From Cenarchaeum sp. SB0675_bin_21 (GTDB lineage: Archaea; Thermoproteota; Nitrososphaeria; Nitrososphaerales; Nitrosopumilaceae), in contig VYCS01000036.1 in NCBI GenBank assembly GCA_009843815.1, positions 1 through 43,627 of the forward strand: a DNA stretch of 43,627 nt, given 5' to 3'. Position 1 is the stretch's first letter. Each line of letters begins with the position of its first letter. The notes below the pieces were generated by a model, which searched no databases, had not been told where the DNA came from, and worked only from the letters and a program-made list of their open reading frames with translations. Both the position numbers and the translations under genes were made by a program. This document shows positions 35,827-43,627 of this stretch, in pieces.

Positions 35827-37303
35827 TAGAGTTTATGCGTAATTGCACAACTTGGCAACATTGGGCGGTCCCGGCCCGCTCTGGCCGGTATCGCCCACCC
35901 CGGTACAGCCCATCGGTTCACCGCCGACGGAATTCTGGCGTTCCGGTTTGTGCGCCCCCGACAGATGCCATTCAGCATCTGCACTACGGCCCTCTAACAG
36001 CCGCATGATGTTAAGAAGTGTAATGTTCAGGCCATGTGTGATTGCCCGGTCAGCGGCCGCCTCTTTCAGCAACCGTGTTATGTGATACAGTGTGGCGTTT
36101 GATGACATAGTGGTATTACACATCAGGGCCAGTATGGTACGAAATAGTATGTTGGCACCCGCATTGGCATCCCGTTCCCTAATTGTACGGCATGTATGGC
36201 ACCACATGCCGCGAGTAGGTATTTTACCGGTATTTGTACCGATATATTCTAGACTCCCGCCGCACTTGAGACATTTAGCGGACGTATTCCGTGGTTCGAT
36301 GCCTATACACGGCAGGCCCTCGGACTCGGCTGCGTTTTTGAGGGCGTTCTGTCTTTGGCCCGTATTCAGTGTGGACTTTGTTTTGCCACGCACAAATGGT
36401 GATGTTTTGCCGTTTTTGGTGTACAAGCGGTGTATGCCCAACGTTTCATGCCCTATACCGTATCCGGCATTGGCCATCTTCCGAGCTTCCACACACATAT
36501 CGTTGTGGATGCGATTTTTGTATACACTCCATGCCTTGTTTGTATATTTTGTCATGATGCGGTTATCACTACGCCGCTTTACCTTTAGCATCCTGCTGTG
36601 TGCCTTGTTGTATTCATGTGCATTGCGGTTGGGCCGCATAATTGCAGTACCATCGGCGAATGCATAGGTGTTGTTTTTGGCATTCATGTCCACACCGGCC
36701 CAGGATACAGGCTCACAATCCGGAATGCTTTCCTTGTATGTAATGTATATTTTATTGCCCCTTAGCAGTACAGTCTTTGGCGTTCTGCCAGGCTTGGTGA
36801 GCTCATCCACTACATATGGTGGTACCGGGAAGACCAGCCATGGCTTATCTGGACGGCCTCTGCCGTATATGGGTACATATATTGATGGTGTGCCATTCCA
36901 CCGCTTTGATGTATCATCAAATGCCAACTTGAACCTGTCTGTCTGCGCCACAGGGTTGTGATAGTGCGGCGCACGTACATGCATATCAGTCAACTGATTC
37001 GTACGCCATGCCTTGTGGTTTCCATGCACGTTTTGTATTATATAGTCGGCGAAGCGCGAGTGGTATACGCCGGTACGGTGAACTACAATATGATATAATT
37101 TCTTGCCACGCACACCCCTGCGTAATGCCTTCGCAGCATGGTTGGATGCAGCCTCCACATAATGTAACAAGCCACCCAAAAGATGCCCGTTGTCATGTGT
37201 TACATGGATGGTGCGTACTATCATACCCATACACATGATGTATGGTTTGTGCTATTTATGTGTACGGTATCATACCTCATAATTCGATTACGCATAGACT
37301 CTA
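35827..37303. mobile_element. TnpB-only element with 19-nt inverted ends
   Basis: TAGAGTTTATGCGTAATTG at 35827-35845 and the reverse complement of 37285-37303 agree at 17 of 19 bases. They flank a single gene, tnpB, and give an element of 1477 bp. The left copy overlaps the tnpB stop codon. No TnpA transposase is present. IS200/IS605 elements normally end in subterminal hairpins, not inverted repeats, so these ends are unusual for the family. The element lies between the tRNA-Trp gene and the cupredoxin-like gene. No clear target duplication is seen outside. Confidence 0.6.
35833..37236 (-). CDS. tnpB: TnpB-family RNA-guided nuclease (IS200/IS605-type OrfB)
   Basis: TnpB is an RNA-guided DNA nuclease related to Cas12. 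The 467-residue product has all three RuvC acids: Asp183 (AGVDMNAKNN), Glu264 (GHETLGIHR) and Asp356 (RERDANAGANI). The zinc ribbon Cys322, Cys325, Cys346 and Cys349 lies between the last two, as in the family. It is therefore probably active. A tail of about 110 residues follows the RuvC domain; in this family the guide RNA overlaps the gene's 3' end, so this part may serve mainly as RNA template. ATG codons at 37236, 37230 and 37224 are all possible. GC content is higher than in the aconitase gene. Confidence 0.88.
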   Translation of the reverse strand: MCMGMIVRTIHVTHDNGHLLGGLLHYVEAASNHAAKALRRGVRGKKLYHIVVHRTGVYHSRFADYIIQNVHGNHKAWRTNQLTDMHVRAPHYHNPVAQTDRFKLAFDDTSKRWNGTPSIYVPIYGRGRPDKPWLVFPVPPYVVDELTKPGRTPKTVLLRGNKIYITYKESIPDCEPVSWAGVDMNAKNNTYAFADGTAIMRPNRNAHEYNKAHSRMLKVKRRSDNRIMTKYTNKAWSVYKNRIHNDMCVEARKMANAGYGIGHETLGIHRLYTKNGKTSPFVRGKTKSTLNTGQRQNALKNAAESEGLPCIGIEPRNTSAKCLKCGGSLEYIGTNTGKIPTRGMWCHTCRTIRERDANAGANILFRTILALMCNTTMSSNATLYHITRLLKEAAADRAITHGLNITLLNIMRLLEGRSADAEWHLSGAHKPERQNSVGGEPMGCTGVGDTGQSGPGPPNVAKLCNYA

Positions 37304-38493: not shown

Positions 38494-38720
38494 TCAGCAC
38501 ATATTTTTATCACTTTTATTTTTAGGAAATTATATACAAGAGTGGCGCTAACCGGTGCTGTCCACGCATTTTTCTGGTATTCCACACTGGAGCCGTCACG
38601 AGTGTTGATTCGTTGTCATAGTACATCTCCTATATAGGATGATGGTGAACTATGAAGTACGGTTGGTTGACAGATTATCTTGTATGATATATCATGTAAT
38701 CTGGCCTGACCGAAGCGTAG

Positions 38721-39221
38721 CTATAGTGAGTTTATAATGTCCTCAAATCCGGACACAGGCCGGTCAATGTGGGATGGCTTTTGTATATCCACAAGGAAGT
38801 TTACTTCACTACGGTAGTTTGTATAGTATACCTTCTTTGCATCTACTATCTTGACTTTTACCACCCCCTCCTTTATCATATCTGTAAGATATGTTGATAT
38901 AGTCGAGGGAGATTTTTTGCACCGTTCAACTATCTCTGTAAACCGAAGGTTATCATCTGCTGTTAGGGCTAGTAGTATGGCACGGGTGGTGGATCTCTGA
39001 AGTGCTCTTGCCACCTTGAACTGCTCTTCAGTTATGTTCAGCGAAGAATAATGCACCTTTCCTGGACCACGGGATACCCGAATCCTGCCTCTGTCCTCCA
39101 TGTGTCTGAGATGGTGGCTCAATACACCGTTCTTCAAACCAGATATGCGCATTATCTCTCGGAACCGAATACCCGGACTCTTCTCTATTATCTCAAGTAT
39201 GTGGTTCCGCTTGTCAGTCAT
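38721..39221 (-). CDS. Transcription regulator with two winged-helix domains
   Basis: The 166-residue product from ATG 39221 contains two HTH units. The first (about 1-60) reads ILEIIEKSPGIRFREIMRISGLKNGVLSHHLRHMEDRGRI; the second (about 75-130) reads ILLALTADDNLRFTEIVERCKKSPSTISTYLTDMIKEG. Both have the ArsR/MarR-like fold pattern, and there is no effector domain apart from a short tail. It starts inside the end of the 4-TM gene (8-nt overlap), so the pair is co-transcribed, and the membrane protein may be its signal source. An upstream start at 39242 is possible but lies deeper in the neighbouring gene. Confidence 0.8.
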   Translation of the reverse strand: MTDKRNHILEIIEKSPGIRFREIMRISGLKNGVLSHHLRHMEDRGRIRVSRGPGKVHYSSLNITEEQFKVARALQRSTTRAILLALTADDNLRFTEIVERCKKSPSTISTYLTDMIKEGVVKVKIVDAKKVYYTNYRSEVNFLVDIQKPSHIDRPVSGFEDIINSL

Positions 39222-39600
39222 TTCGAAACACCGCAATAGCAAGTAGTCCCAGCGCAGAGAATGCCAGTAGGTGGCCCAGCTCTTCTATGGGAAGTATTCC
39301 TATACTGTCCAGGAATGGCCATACTGCATAGATCAACAGCGCCACCTCCGAGGCAGCAAAACATGCAAACGCCAGAGTGCTTATCATGAGTCTTCTACTT
39401 CTGGTCCGTCGATATGATGCTACCGACAGAACTGTAAGGAATAATGCAAGCGTCAGACCTACTATGTGTAGCGCAATATGCGCCATATGATATCCGTGTA
39501 GTACATGTGGGATGATCACCGGAACGGCCAGAATTGCTATCACCACACCTGCCGTGACAGAGAAGAGTGCAGGTTTGTTCTCCAGCATGTGGCTTAACAT
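39214..39600 (-). CDS. Four-helix membrane protein coupled to the winged-helix regulator
   Basis: The 128-residue product has four membrane helices (about 12-30, 40-60, 71-93 and 104-124), with His-rich edges after the first (PHVLHGYHMAHIALH) and a basic loop YRRTRSRR between helices 2 and 3. The family is not recognised. The stop codon overlaps the regulator start, and similar pairs of HTH regulator and small membrane protein occur in archaea. The histidines could bind a metal or heme, but no known motif is complete. Confidence 0.65.
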   Translation of the reverse strand: MLSHMLENKPALFSVTAGVVIAILAVPVIIPHVLHGYHMAHIALHIVGLTLALFLTVLSVASYRRTRSRRLMISTLAFACFAASEVALLIYAVWPFLDSIGILPIEELGHLLAFSALGLLAIAVFRND

Positions 39601-39810
39601 GATGAAACATACGCTCCTCGATGTTTAAAGCATGTGGTGCAATCATCAAACATATGACTGTGGATTTTGTGCGGCATGATTATCGCCAAGCTGTATATTG
39701 TTACAGATGTATCTAATGTAGATTGGAATTACATGTTACAACATTGTAATCTACTCGCGGTCCCCACAGCCGAGACCGCGACAGAATCAATAAAATATAG
39801 AAAAAGAAGT

Positions 39811-40143
39811 TTAACCTCGTCCCATTGCAGCATACTTGCCAGAGCGCGCCCTTACGAAGAAGGCGGCGGCAATACCACCAAATACGGCTCCTGCAATGAT
39901 TGATGCTCCAACTACGCCACCAGCATCAAGATATGGTGTTCCTGAACCACTGGAGGGATTAGACTCGGCGGCTTCAATTCTTCTTTGGGCCAACAAGAGA
40001 GTCTCCTCTAATGTGTTTTGACCTGTTTCACCTTGTGAACCTATGTTTCCCATATATTGAGCAAATGCTACAGAGCTAGCTCCATAGTAACCCAACATAA
40101 AGACTGTCATTATAGCTACCGATAGGATTACTTTAGTATTCAT
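39811..40143 (-). CDS. Small exported protein with C-terminal membrane helix
   Basis: The 110-residue product has a signal peptide (1-28, ending SSVAFAQY), an outer segment rich in Gly, Glu and Ser (about 30-70, with ETLLLAQRRIEAAESNPSSG), and a C-terminal helix (about 77-96, VVGASIIAGAVFGGIAAAFF) followed by RARSGKYAAMGRG. The final positively charged tail should stay in the cytosol. The layout resembles small exported proteins common in ammonia-oxidising archaea; an AMO-linked role cannot be excluded but is not shown. A TATA-like TATTTAACT lies at 40170-40178, about 31 nt before the ATG. Confidence 0.65.
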   Translation of the reverse strand: MNTKVILSVAIMTVFMLGYYGASSVAFAQYMGNIGSQGETGQNTLEETLLLAQRRIEAAESNPSSGSGTPYLDAGGVVGASIIAGAVFGGIAAAFFVRARSGKYAAMGRG

Positions 40144-40382
40144 ATCTTTTACAGATTGACATTGTCTGCTATTTAACTTTTAGTTTTGGAAGGCGCTGTC
40201 AAATCTTGGGGGGATGATGTGTAGTGTCAAAAGAGGGGGATGGTATGCCATACTCCCAACGGGACGCATCGCACCATCTAAAAGGAATTGGGAAATTATA
40301 GGTACATAGAACATAGTGGGAGATAGGGTACATGGCCCAAAAAGCAAAACAATTATCTAACTTTGTGGTAAGATGACACAAT

Positions 40383-41234
40383 ATGACACAGAATGCAAGT
40401 GACGATGATCCAGAGTTTGGAGGTACCTGGACTCAAGACAAATTAGATATGTTGGAAAGTTATCTTAATGCCTACACGACTGCACTGAAGAATAAGAATT
40501 TTCGTCTTATCTACATAGACGGGTTTGCAGGTACGGGTAGTGTCAACGTACGGTATGACGATTATGTTACAGAGTATATCAACGGTTCAGTAATGAGAGC
40601 ATTGGCAGTTAAAGATAGACAATTTGACAAACTATATTGTGTAGAAAAAGATCATAACAGGTATATGTTGTTGAAAGAGAAACTAAAGACACAACACAGA
40701 TGTGAAGTCATAAAGGCTGATTTCAATGAGTATATAGAATCACTCGGTACTCTATCTAATGATACTAGAGGTGTAGTGTTTATTGATCCGTTCGGCGCGT
40801 CTGTTAAATGGTCAACCATAAAACGAATAGCAAGATTAAACGCTTTGGATATGTGGCTGCTTTACCCAACATCTGCCATCACTAGGATGCTCCCCGTGCA
40901 TAAACTGCCAAGTGAGATGGCGGGGTGGGAGGATAAGCTTACTGCCATCTTTGGTGGGAAAGAATGGACCGAGTTGTACGGCGATGACCCACAACGAACA
41001 ATAACGGGTGAAATACGTCCTTTAAGAGAAGAGGATGCTAAGACTATATCCAAACTATATCAAAGCAAACTAAAACGAGTGTTTGGAAGTAAGTTGCTTA
41101 ACAAGACGTACGAATTCAAAACACGTAACAACGCAGTGTTGTTTGAGTTTATGTTTTGTGTTGGCAGTCCTAGTCCGACAGCTATAAAACTAGCCAAAAG
41201 AATTGCTGGGCATATATTAAAAAAGTCTACCTAG
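40383..41234 (+). CDS. tcmP: Three-Cys-motif partner protein TcmP
   Basis: TcmP proteins are methyltransferase-fold proteins found beside three-Cys (Gp37/Gp68, DUF5131) proteins. The 283-residue product has the SAM-binding-type motif LIYIDGFAGTGSV, then VVFIDPFGASVKW, the DPFG equivalent of a catalytic loop, and a C-terminal helical domain (LYQSKLKRVFG, PTAIKLAKRIAGHIL). The partner gene is convergent with a 4-nt overlap of the two stops, the usual pairing. The pair is often found in defence or mobile regions; its chemistry is unknown. An ATG at 40373 is in another frame and was ignored. Confidence 0.88.
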   Translation: MTQNASDDDPEFGGTWTQDKLDMLESYLNAYTTALKNKNFRLIYIDGFAGTGSVNVRYDDYVTEYINGSVMRALAVKDRQFDKLYCVEKDHNRYMLLKEKLKTQHRCEVIKADFNEYIESLGTLSNDTRGVVFIDPFGASVKWSTIKRIARLNALDMWLLYPTSAITRMLPVHKLPSEMAGWEDKLTAIFGGKEWTELYGDDPQRTITGEIRPLREEDAKTISKLYQSKLKRVFGSKLLNKTYEFKTRNNAVLFEFMFCVGSPSPTAIKLAKRIAGHILKKST

Positions 41235-41959
41235 GTCTTTGGATATTCATTGTATATCCGACCATTAATATGTCGCCCGCCAGATTTTGGGCGTGGGCCG
41301 CCCCATTGCTTGAAGAAGACAGGTACGTGTTGCTGTTGGCATTGGGAGATGATATCGATAATCCATTCCTTCTTGACCGGTCGATAACCAGTTCCGCTTT
41401 CCCCTCCAATGATAACCCAGTGAATACCGTCTAAGTTGACCTGCCCAACAGGGCCAAGCAACGGCTCAAAACTAATGAACCTTGTCTTGCATCTAACCTG
41501 GCGGAGGTCATCCAATCGGTACAGGGTATTTGCATTCTCCACACTGGTACCCATCCAGATATAGTTTGGAATCAACACCCCAAAATATTTCTCAAACATA
41601 TGGGAAAAATCTCTCATCCGGTGTGGACGTTTGGTGAGAATTTGGTAGGTGTGCCAGTTTGCTTTGGTCATAACATCAAAACAACGTGCAATGAACTCAG
41701 TGGTGGCATCCTCATGGAATAGGTCAGACATACTGTTGACGAAGATTCGGCGTGATTTCTTCCAAGTCAAAGGAATGTCTACTGCTGATTTGTGTTCTGT
41801 GTAAGTGAACCCACTATCGTACTTTGGCATCCCCATGGCGTGGAGTCGTTTTGCCAGTGTTTCAGCATAGCAGTTAGCGCATCCTGAGGAGATCTTGGAG
41901 CATCCAGTGGTTGGGTTCCAAGTGGCTTCAGTCCATTCTATCGCAGATCCTACAGCCAT
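41231..41959 (-). CDS. Three-Cys-motif protein, phage Gp37/Gp68 family (DUF5131)
   Basis: The 242-residue product starts with IEWTEATWNPTTGCSKISSG and has cysteines 20, 27 and 30 in a C-x6-C-x2-C cluster. Spacing differs from classical radical-SAM C-x3-C-x2-C, but the family is thought to be related and may bind an iron-sulfur cluster. Further family strings are VNSMSDLFHED, ILTKRPHRM, WMGTSVENA and VIIGGESGTGYRPV, with KQWGG near the end. It is the partner of TcmP and overlaps it tail to tail by 4 nt. Members are carried by phages and defence islands; the substrate is unknown. Confidence 0.9.
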   Translation of the reverse strand: MAVGSAIEWTEATWNPTTGCSKISSGCANCYAETLAKRLHAMGMPKYDSGFTYTEHKSAVDIPLTWKKSRRIFVNSMSDLFHEDATTEFIARCFDVMTKANWHTYQILTKRPHRMRDFSHMFEKYFGVLIPNYIWMGTSVENANTLYRLDDLRQVRCKTRFISFEPLLGPVGQVNLDGIHWVIIGGESGTGYRPVKKEWIIDIISQCQQQHVPVFFKQWGGPRPKSGGRHINGRIYNEYPKT

Positions 41960-42111
41960 AGCACACCATAGTTATGGTGTGTGTGGGGGTAGTATATATC
42001 AACGGTGGTCATGCGGAATTGTCAAGAACGTGTGCGATGATACATGCTGTCAAATTTGTGTGATGTGGTTTTGTAAAGAAGTGATCTGTGTAATGGTGTA
42101 AAATTGGTGAC

Positions 42112-43479
42112 CTAATGGGCCACTATGCCCAGCTTGGTCAGTCTCACCTTTGCCTCTGCCATTGTCCCCTTGCCCTTAACACGGTTACAATGACCGCACA
42201 GTAGTTGTAGGTTGCCATCATCATCAGGTCCACCCCTTGCCTTGGGTATCTTGTGGTCGACTTCCATGTGGCGAAACTCAATCTCATGTCTGCATAGATT
42301 ACAACGGCCCTCTTGCACACCAAACAATTGGTGTTTAATATTCTTTGATCTATTGCCTTTGCGTATTGGTATGTCCGTCCTCTGGATTACCACACCAGCA
42401 CCTTTTGTCCACTTTTCTATACCTGCCTCACTAACCATCCTAGCGTTCATTAGTTCTACAGCTTTAGGTGATATGTCTATGCCGATCCATTTTCGGTTTA
42501 GTCGTTCGGCTGCTGAACAGGCGGTCGCACAACCGCAGAAAGGGTCTAAGATCATGTCATCTTTACGTGTGGATGCTTGGATGATCCGCTCTAGCAGCGC
42601 AAGTGGTTTTTGTGTCGGATACCCCAATCGTTCATTACCTAGCGCCATTGTAATATCAGTCCAAACATTTTGTAGTGGAATACCTAGAGCATCCTTGAGA
42701 TAGAGTTTGTATCTGGGGATACCTAGTCCTTTTTTTGGAAAATGTATTTTCCCATCTTTTTCTAATTGTTGCATGGATTCTAAAGATCGTTTCCACACGC
42801 GATGATGACCATGAAATTCATATTCATATCCGCCACCTTGTAGACTTTGTGCTGTTAATTGCTGATCTGAATATTTACCTTTTTCATCTTGATGCCTGAA
42901 GCTTTTTAGTATAAATTCTTCAGAATAAGGCACGTAAACTGTGTTCCATATGTACTTGTTCGACTTGGAATAAAATAATATGCTATCTGTTATTCTACCA
43001 TATTTTTTACCATCATTATGTGCATTATTTCGTTTCCAAACTATCTCATTGCGGAAATGATCACGATCGAATATCGCATCTAACACCATCTTGAGATAAT
43101 GACTCATGGTTTGGTCGCAGTGTAAGTATAAGGAACCCGTACTCTTTAGTATACGGTGCATCTCTAGTATGCGTATTGCCATGTAGATTAGATAGGACAT
43201 GGCACTCTTGCCTGCTGTATGTTTGGCAGCCTCTAGTGCCTTATACAGTGCAGTGTTTGTCTCGGCAATCTCACCCCACCATGATACATCAACATCTTGT
43301 AAAGTCCATGTATCCTTGAATGCGGCCCCGGCCGCCTTTGAACCTATTGGGGCGGCATAGTTATGTTTTGAATTAAACGGTGGGTCTAGATATATTAAAT
43401 CAACAAATTCATTTGGAAAGCCACGTAATATCTCTAGGTTGTCGCCTGTGAATATTGTCCGGTTCTTGATGCCGGACAT
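42112..43479 (-). CDS. DNA methyltransferase fused to an HNH endonuclease domain
   Basis: Residues 1-345 are a beta-class N4-cytosine/N6-adenine methyltransferase. The catalytic DPPF motif (32-35) precedes the SAM-binding DPFCGCAT (311-318), the order of the beta class, and a target-recognition region with many charged residues lies between (about 145-275). Residues 391-436 are an HNH nuclease: zinc-type Cys392 and Cys395, EVDHKIPKARGG with Asp407-His408, then Cys427, Cys430 and Asn431. Modification and cutting are thus on one chain, a possible single-protein restriction-modification system, or a methyltransferase with a nuclease for modified DNA. It lies beside the TcmP pair and 72 nt from a 19-bp tandem repeat. 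Confidence 0.9.
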   Translation of the reverse strand: MSGIKNRTIFTGDNLEILRGFPNEFVDLIYLDPPFNSKHNYAAPIGSKAAGAAFKDTWTLQDVDVSWWGEIAETNTALYKALEAAKHTAGKSAMSYLIYMAIRILEMHRILKSTGSLYLHCDQTMSHYLKMVLDAIFDRDHFRNEIVWKRNNAHNDGKKYGRITDSILFYSKSNKYIWNTVYVPYSEEFILKSFRHQDEKGKYSDQQLTAQSLQGGGYEYEFHGHHRVWKRSLESMQQLEKDGKIHFPKKGLGIPRYKLYLKDALGIPLQNVWTDITMALGNERLGYPTQKPLALLERIIQASTRKDDMILDPFCGCATACSAAERLNRKWIGIDISPKAVELMNARMVSEAGIEKWTKGAGVVIQRTDIPIRKGNRSKNIKHQLFGVQEGRCNLCRHEIEFRHMEVDHKIPKARGGPDDDGNLQLLCGHCNRVKGKGTMAEAKVRLTKLGIVAH

Positions 43480-43551
43480 TCACATAGACAGCCTCCGATG
43501 AGTTGATAAGGCAGTGTACAAATTGACTGGTATGCCGCCACTTGCATAATT

Positions 43552-43627
43552 TGGCCGTAGGCCTCGTATTTGGCCGTAGGCCTCGTATTTGGCCGTAGGC
43601 CTCGTATTTGGCCGTAGGCCTCGTATT
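43552..43627. repeat. Four perfect 19-bp tandem repeats running to the window end
   Basis: The unit TGGCCGTAGGCCTCGTATT repeats without change at 43552, 43571, 43590 and 43609 and is cut only by the end of the window. Each unit contains the small palindrome GGCC-GTA-GGCC, so the array can form multiple hairpins. It lies 72 nt before the start of the methyltransferase-HNH gene. True copy number is unknown because the sequence ends inside the array. Confidence 0.9.

Follow-up and report, generated by a model that had tools for sequence, protein, structure and literature searches.

The closest described relative of the locus treated here is PDC-M41, a candidate defence system that, like its sister PDC-M30, was predicted by guilt-by-embedding (PMC12988326, PMC10855318) and that consists of the same two protein families, TcmP and DUF5131 (Gp37/Gp68). 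Bacteria, archaea and phages widely carry the pair, and this computational label is the only description that we found; in the literature surveyed (open-licence papers, without preprints, to which all our statements on literature refer) DUF5131, TcmP and the radical S-adenosylmethionine (SAM) mobile pair appear only in passing annotations. We describe such a pair in a stretch of 43,627 nucleotides (contig VYCS01000036.1, hereafter the window) from Cenarchaeum sp. SB0675_bin_21. The locus differs from PDC-M41 in that it is found in an archaeon of the ammonia-oxidising type, is carried by an IS6-type transposon, has its two genes in convergent orientation and lies beside a gene for a DNA methyltransferase fused to an HNH nuclease (MTase-HNH). 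As candidate PDC-M41 the pair is already known; that literature yielded no mention of the recognition of DUF5131 as a radical-SAM protein through intermediates with the canonical motif, of its exchange for an SPL-like (spore-photoproduct-lyase-like) partner or of carriage by an IS6-type element.

TcmP and DUF5131 are a real, recurrent and strongly conserved unit, and all three genes of the locus are passengers of an IS6-type element of ~6.2 kb. With regard to function, we think it probable, if narrowly so, that the two enzymes form a self-contained mobile module that modifies nucleic acids and serves mainly in antiviral defence or in competition between elements, the MTase-HNH gene being an unrelated co-passenger on the same transposon. 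The original prediction, made from the sequence of the window, had instead suggested that the three genes could form one base-modification and restriction system, built from a methyltransferase-fold protein, an iron-sulfur-type three-Cys protein and, directly beside them, a one-chain methyltransferase-nuclease. An ORF check recovered the three reading frames exactly where it had placed them, and its description of the individual proteins and of the pair has held up in the analyses given below; the three-gene system has not.

The pairing was followed at 80 DUF5131 loci from GTDB species genomes and in a viral set of 79 TcmP and 80 DUF5131 loci. TcmP lies within 1.5 kb of DUF5131, mostly touching it, at 67 of the 80 genome loci, where same-strand, divergent and convergent gene orders all occur, and DUF5131 is adjacent at 77 of the 79 viral TcmP loci. 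In a set of 101 related genomes, DUF5131 is matched in 13 and TcmP in seven; every one of these seven also has DUF5131, and all eight of their TcmP loci adjoin it. The two proteins are fused in a member of the Latescibacterota (L140, DUF5131 followed by TcmP), and a second natural fusion is archaeal (L301). Distances within the two families are correlated, with a Mantel r of 0.22 for 56 genome pairs and of 0.42 for the viral set of 35 pairs (reached in 0 of 2000 permutations), a correlation to which shared descent contributes.

A sweep of archaeal phyla yielded 26 loci with TcmP, of which 13 adjoin a DUF5131-type protein and one is fused to such a protein. At nine others the neighbour is instead a radical-SAM protein resembling spore photoproduct lyase (SPL); six of these SPL-like partners score above the cut-off of PF20903 (E up to 4.5e-19), and for three the family is Radical_SAM (E up to 7.7e-22). 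The remaining three loci have neither partner, and two of them fall below the cut-off for TcmP itself. Because the radical-SAM partners interchange while TcmP stays constant, because fusions exist and because TcmP is nearly absent without a radical-SAM neighbour, the two enzymes probably act jointly. We would go further only tentatively, rating it somewhat below an even chance that TcmP with either of its interchangeable partners (DUF5131 or SPL-like) represents a general, hitherto undescribed class of two-enzyme systems, which join a radical reaction on a base to methylation and which bacteria, archaea and temperate phages use in virus-host conflict. At one locus (L295/L311, G207:C1:147156-150061) a single radical-SAM gene stands between two TcmP genes; its product is intermediate between DUF5131 and the SPL-like proteins, and its cysteine cluster, CINGCYNDCRYC, is unusual.

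The DUF5131 protein of the window matches PF07505 (E=2.3e-90), the PADLOC model PDC-M41B (2.2e-104) and TIGR04471 (radical SAM mobile pair protein A, rSAM_mob_pairA; 6.7e-25), the last with 87.8 bits and thus far below the cut-off of 355 bits. TIGR04471 is also matched by 11 of 11 close DUF5131 members. The radical-SAM core is common to DUF5131, TIGR04471 and the SPL-like (PF20903) enzymes, but whereas the latter two have the canonical CX3CX2C motif, 168 of 169 DUF5131 homologues have CX6CX2C. This spacing may be explained by an insertion of three residues, since homologues that share the other signature motifs have CX3CX2C: the archaeal DUF5131-type partners L300, L305 and L301 carry the canonical form, their alignment to the window protein running through TWNPxTGC, S/TDMxDL, LTK and SxEP, and the CSKISSGCANC of the window is three residues longer than their motif. 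When the profiles of DUF5131 and of the SPL-like partners were compared by hhalign (E=2.8e-5, probability 74), the cysteine motifs were aligned. Membership of DUF5131 in the radical-SAM superfamily is therefore well supported at the level of sequence, in keeping with the iron-sulfur-type protein that had been predicted.

This does not mean that DUF5131 is a spore photoproduct lyase. It is not a member of that family: no match was obtained to PF20903, TIGR04070 or the sequences of solved SPLs, and in Foldseek its model reached only E=0.037 and a TM of 0.40 against the SPL structure. The alternative TcmP partners are nevertheless homologous to this DNA repair enzyme, and it could be argued that the pair is a mobile nucleic-acid repair module, in which the radical-SAM protein reverses a base lesion in the manner of SPL and TcmP has an accessory or damage-recognizing role. 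We regard this as rather unlikely. The likeness to SPL is limited to the radical-SAM core (66.8 versus 400 bits, far below the lyase equivalog cut-offs), and the pair, present in 7 of 101 relatives, is sporadic and mobile, unlike housekeeping repair.

The TcmP protein matches TIGR04474, which bears the NCBIfam name TcmP (E=3.5e-45), and the PADLOC model PDC-M41A (8e-62), so that both PDC-M41 models are matched by neighbouring genes. An AlphaFold model built from 50 sequences (pLDDT 91.1, pTM 0.89) has RlmJ as its top Foldseek match in the PDB (E=6.4e-8, TM 0.49), followed by Trm1 (3axs) and, lower, by RsmD-like methylases (2fpo); a profile search matched RlmJ at 1e-4. In the 50 TcmPs K20, D46, G50 and D135 are invariant and Y44, F48, A49, G52 and P136 nearly so. 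TcmP resembles RlmJ in its fold, in motif I and in having a GSP motif, and shares the motif IV DPFG with Trm1; indeed, the Trm1 encoded by the same genome carries DPFGS. It is not an orthologue of RlmJ, the score for PF04378 being 18.4 bits against a cut-off of 27 and motif IV being DPFG rather than DPPY, and it differs from both enzymes in being nearly always paired with a radical-SAM protein and in not being a housekeeping enzyme. As judged from alignment and model, TcmP is an RlmJ/Trm1-like nucleic-acid methyltransferase.

RlmJ, Trm1 and RsmD methylate RNA purines at their exocyclic amino groups: RlmJ is the N6-methyltransferase of A2030 in 23S rRNA and Trm1 the N2-dimethyltransferase of G26 in tRNA. 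Since the nearest known relatives of TcmP methylate RNA purines, RNA is by analogy somewhat more likely to be its substrate than DNA; DNA is possible and is suggested by the SPL-type partners. The kind of substrate also bears on the idea that the mobile element or phage carrying the pair has its own DNA modified by it and is thereby protected against host restriction. That the pair is common on viral contigs would fit, as would an arrangement in Gordonia phage Bakery (L222 3421-5975), where in the replication region the DUF5131 gene and a gene for a C5 cytosine methylase share 1 bp. Against such self-marking speak the nearest solved relatives of TcmP, which are RNA methyltransferases, and the frequency of the pair in cellular genomes, and we consider it unlikely. 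The C5 methylase of phage Bakery is a methyltransferase partner of another kind than TcmP.

In the two-enzyme module that we favour, DUF5131 would act as a [4Fe-4S] SPL-like radical-SAM enzyme and initiate a radical reaction at a base, and TcmP, as a SAM-dependent RlmJ/Trm1-type (RNA purine amino-) methyltransferase, would act in turn with it, its target being either that same substrate or what the radical enzyme has made of it. The sequences themselves show the pairing, the assignments to fold and superfamily, the intactness of the motifs and the mobility. We infer this joint substrate, the order of the steps and the preference for RNA, and also the antiviral or mobile-element-competition function that would most likely result. 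The radical-SAM and RlmJ/Trm1-type assignments, together with the exchangeable partner, give the pair a testable chemistry, namely the formation of a new methylated, radical-modified nucleoside. It should be noted that several findings weigh against this picture. About half of the viral DUF5131 loci (37-44 of 80) lack TcmP, 36 of 80 having it, and some genomes likewise have DUF5131 without TcmP. The structure model of DUF5131, built from 11 sequences, is mediocre (pLDDT 75) and found no match in the PDB below E=1e-3, the matches to TIM barrels being weak. The lack of the RlmJ DPPY motif in TcmP means that its chemistry may differ. Restriction and other defence genes are a minority among 119 immediate neighbours of the pair in diverse genomes, and for PDC-M41 neither antiphage activity nor a mechanism was found in the literature.

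The three genes are regarded as transposon passengers because they lie, together with a transposase gene, between outer inverted repeats that a target duplication borders. The unit extends beyond position 43479, the scaffold running past a 10-N gap to a transposase (C13:43997-45217) with an IS240/IS6 DDE domain (DDE_Tnp_IS240; PF13610, 4.6e-14). The terminal inverted repeats are 79% identical over 53 nt (inverted copy at C13:46339-46391) and are bordered by an 8-bp direct duplication, TTTTGGAA; 8 bp is the size expected for target duplications of IS6. Within 55 kb there are five occurrences of GGnnYTGTCAA, at 40192(+), 42015(+), 45957(-), 46389(-) and 46398(+), in all cases at ends of elements. 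A related transposase in another genome (G007, L270) has the ends GGTTCTGTAAAC/GGTTCTGTCAAC and an 8-bp duplication, ATAAAACA, and ends of the window type are therefore tied to this transposase family. The element thus has the IS240-type transposase, the GGNNCTGTCAA-type ends and the 8-bp target duplication of IS6-family transposons, and differs from them in being much longer, in carrying passenger genes and in the length of its terminal repeats, inside which motifs are repeated. Its right half lies beyond the window on the other side of the scaffold gap. The length of ~6.2 kb spans this gap of uncertain size, and the right copy of TTTTGGAA lies in hairpin-like sequence. The element, being intact, shows how the module moves in ammonia-oxidising-type archaea, in which few defence systems are known.

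Inside the transposon the TcmP-DUF5131 block has ends of its own. A sister species (G002) carries the block 40192-42068, with 92% DNA identity over 40865-42068 (L032 698-1986, G002:C28). Its counterpart of the left flank of the window (38717-40188) runs on into a metalloprotease gene, so that synteny is lost after 40188; on the right side the flanks could not be aligned. With breakpoints at about 40189 on the left and at 42068 on the right, the bounded unit is exactly the TcmP-DUF5131 block. The inner end motif lies near the stop of this homology and recurs at C13:45907-45957, where it closes a second, small element on the right side of the transposon, whose inner and outer ends match those of the block. 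This second element (C13:45907-46390, L026 2908-3391) measures 0.48 kb, has the opposite orientation and contains an ORF of 66 aa. That the end motifs are simply promoters or operators is less likely, since they coincide with homology breakpoints, with the target duplication and with the ends used by the transposase family. A search for the end motif in 2.9 million viral contigs was uninformative, its 10 exact matches being scattered.

In the sister species 585 bp of the TcmP gene, its N-terminal half, are missing, and the DUF5131 protein is intact and 97% identical to that of the window. This bears on a further explanation, according to which one of the two enzymes adds a harmful modification to RNA that the other prevents or reverses. 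Such a toxin-antidote pair would be in line with a mobile two-gene unit that occurs in all gene orders and is sometimes fused; moreover, TcmP rarely lacks a radical-SAM partner but DUF5131 can occur by itself, as would be expected if TcmP were the toxic part. An intact DUF5131 beside a truncated TcmP argues against DUF5131 as a toxin that TcmP restrains, and no toxin signature was seen. We take the toxin-antidote explanation to be distinctly improbable.

The protein encoded next to the pair does combine a DNA methyltransferase (PF01555, E=3.1e-42, residues 26-344) with a C-terminal HNH nuclease (PF01844) in one chain, as in type II restriction-modification. In the three-gene system of the original prediction this enzyme would mark and cut DNA, and TcmP and DUF5131 would add a further base modification. 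Both of its domains look intact, and the three genes do lie together inside one transposon. However, recurrent MTase-HNH partners, looked for in the neighbourhoods of the pair, did not appear: a methyltransferase like that of the window is found within 3 kb at 4 of 80 genome loci, and the survey of pair loci revealed no recurrent third family at all. The closest homologue (G024; 55% identical, same architecture) stands alone, adjoining uvrA/uvrC-type genes far from the DUF5131 of that genome; the block in the sister species ends at 42068 and has no MTase-HNH beside it; and no full-length match to the fusion was found in viral contigs. The TcmP and DUF5131 genes are convergent, their 3' ends overlapping by 4 bp, and therefore the three genes are not a single operon. 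The MTase-HNH gene is a local neighbour and not a conserved third partner, the physical cluster being due to shared carriage in one transposon, and a three-gene modification-restriction system appears highly improbable.

As to defence, the original prediction is supported to the extent that a context of this kind is plausible for the pair. It is plausible because PADLOC lists PDC-M41 and because the neighbours of the pair in archaeal relatives include DarT with a macro domain (L033) and an OLD-like AAA/TOPRIM nuclease (L034); a HerA/TraG-like ATPase (L030) is also found there. Gordonia phage Angelique has, between its integrase and its immunity repressor, convergent genes for DUF5131 and a PDC-M30A-type protein. 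A tail or other structural role of Gp37/Gp68 in phages, the outcome that would have spoken for an unrelated function, is unsupported, the phage copies lying in integrase/repressor or replication regions.

Table 1. Coordinates of features of the locus (positions in the window except where C13 is given)
Feature	Position	Strand	Remarks
Target-site duplication TTTTGGAA, left copy	40184..40191	.	8 bp, directly before left terminal repeat
Left terminal inverted repeat (GGCGCTGTCAAATC...)	40192..40244	+	two CTGTCAAA-type motifs 28 bp apart
TcmP	40383..41234	+	283 aa; RlmJ/Trm1-like class I methyltransferase (predicted)
TcmP motif I YIDGFAGTG (SAM-binding loop)	40512..40538	+	from alignment of 50 TcmPs
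TcmP motif IV DPFG (Trm1-like, not DPPY)	40785..40796	+	from alignment of 50 TcmPs
DUF5131 (Gp37/Gp68, PDC-M41B)	41231..41959	-	242 aa; divergent radical-SAM enzyme (predicted)
DUF5131 three-Cys motif C20-x6-C27-x2-C30	41870..41902	-	CX6CX2C
Inner end motif (GGAATTGTCAAG...CTGTCAAATTTGTGTGATG)	42015..42065	+	right boundary of TcmP-DUF5131 block
N6/N4 DNA methyltransferase-HNH nuclease fusion	42112..43479	-	455 aa, one chain; separate passenger
HNH nuclease domain of the fusion	42169..42303	-	residues 393-437, PF01844 E=4.2e-11
19-bp tandem repeat ATTTGGCCGTAGGCCTCGT	43549..43627	.	4.2 copies, 100%, into 10-N scaffold gap
Target-site duplication TTTTGGAA, right copy	C13:46390-46397	.	outside the window; directly after right terminal repeat (C13:46389(-))

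Perfect copies of the repeat ATTTGGCCGTAGGCCTCGT are also present on the other side of the gap (about 3 copies; C13:43638-43697, L026 639-698), and at up to 2 mismatches none was found elsewhere in the genome. A few kb from the element the window carries a gene for a TnpB-like RNA-guided nuclease (35833-37236, minus strand), which has a Cas12f1-like TNB domain and matches guided_TnpB at 3.8e-10, below the family cut-off. Elsewhere in the same genome there are DUF5131-like fragments that have decayed and contain stops (L002/L027 8568-8963, G000:C14), and three DUF5131-like fragments were seen in G024 (L041); such decay suggests repeated gain and loss. At four other loci (L072, L178, L129 and L080) the TcmP-DUF5131 pair is flanked by direct repeats of 24 to 95 bp, well above what shuffled flanks give, which could be attachment-site duplications or duplicated genes.

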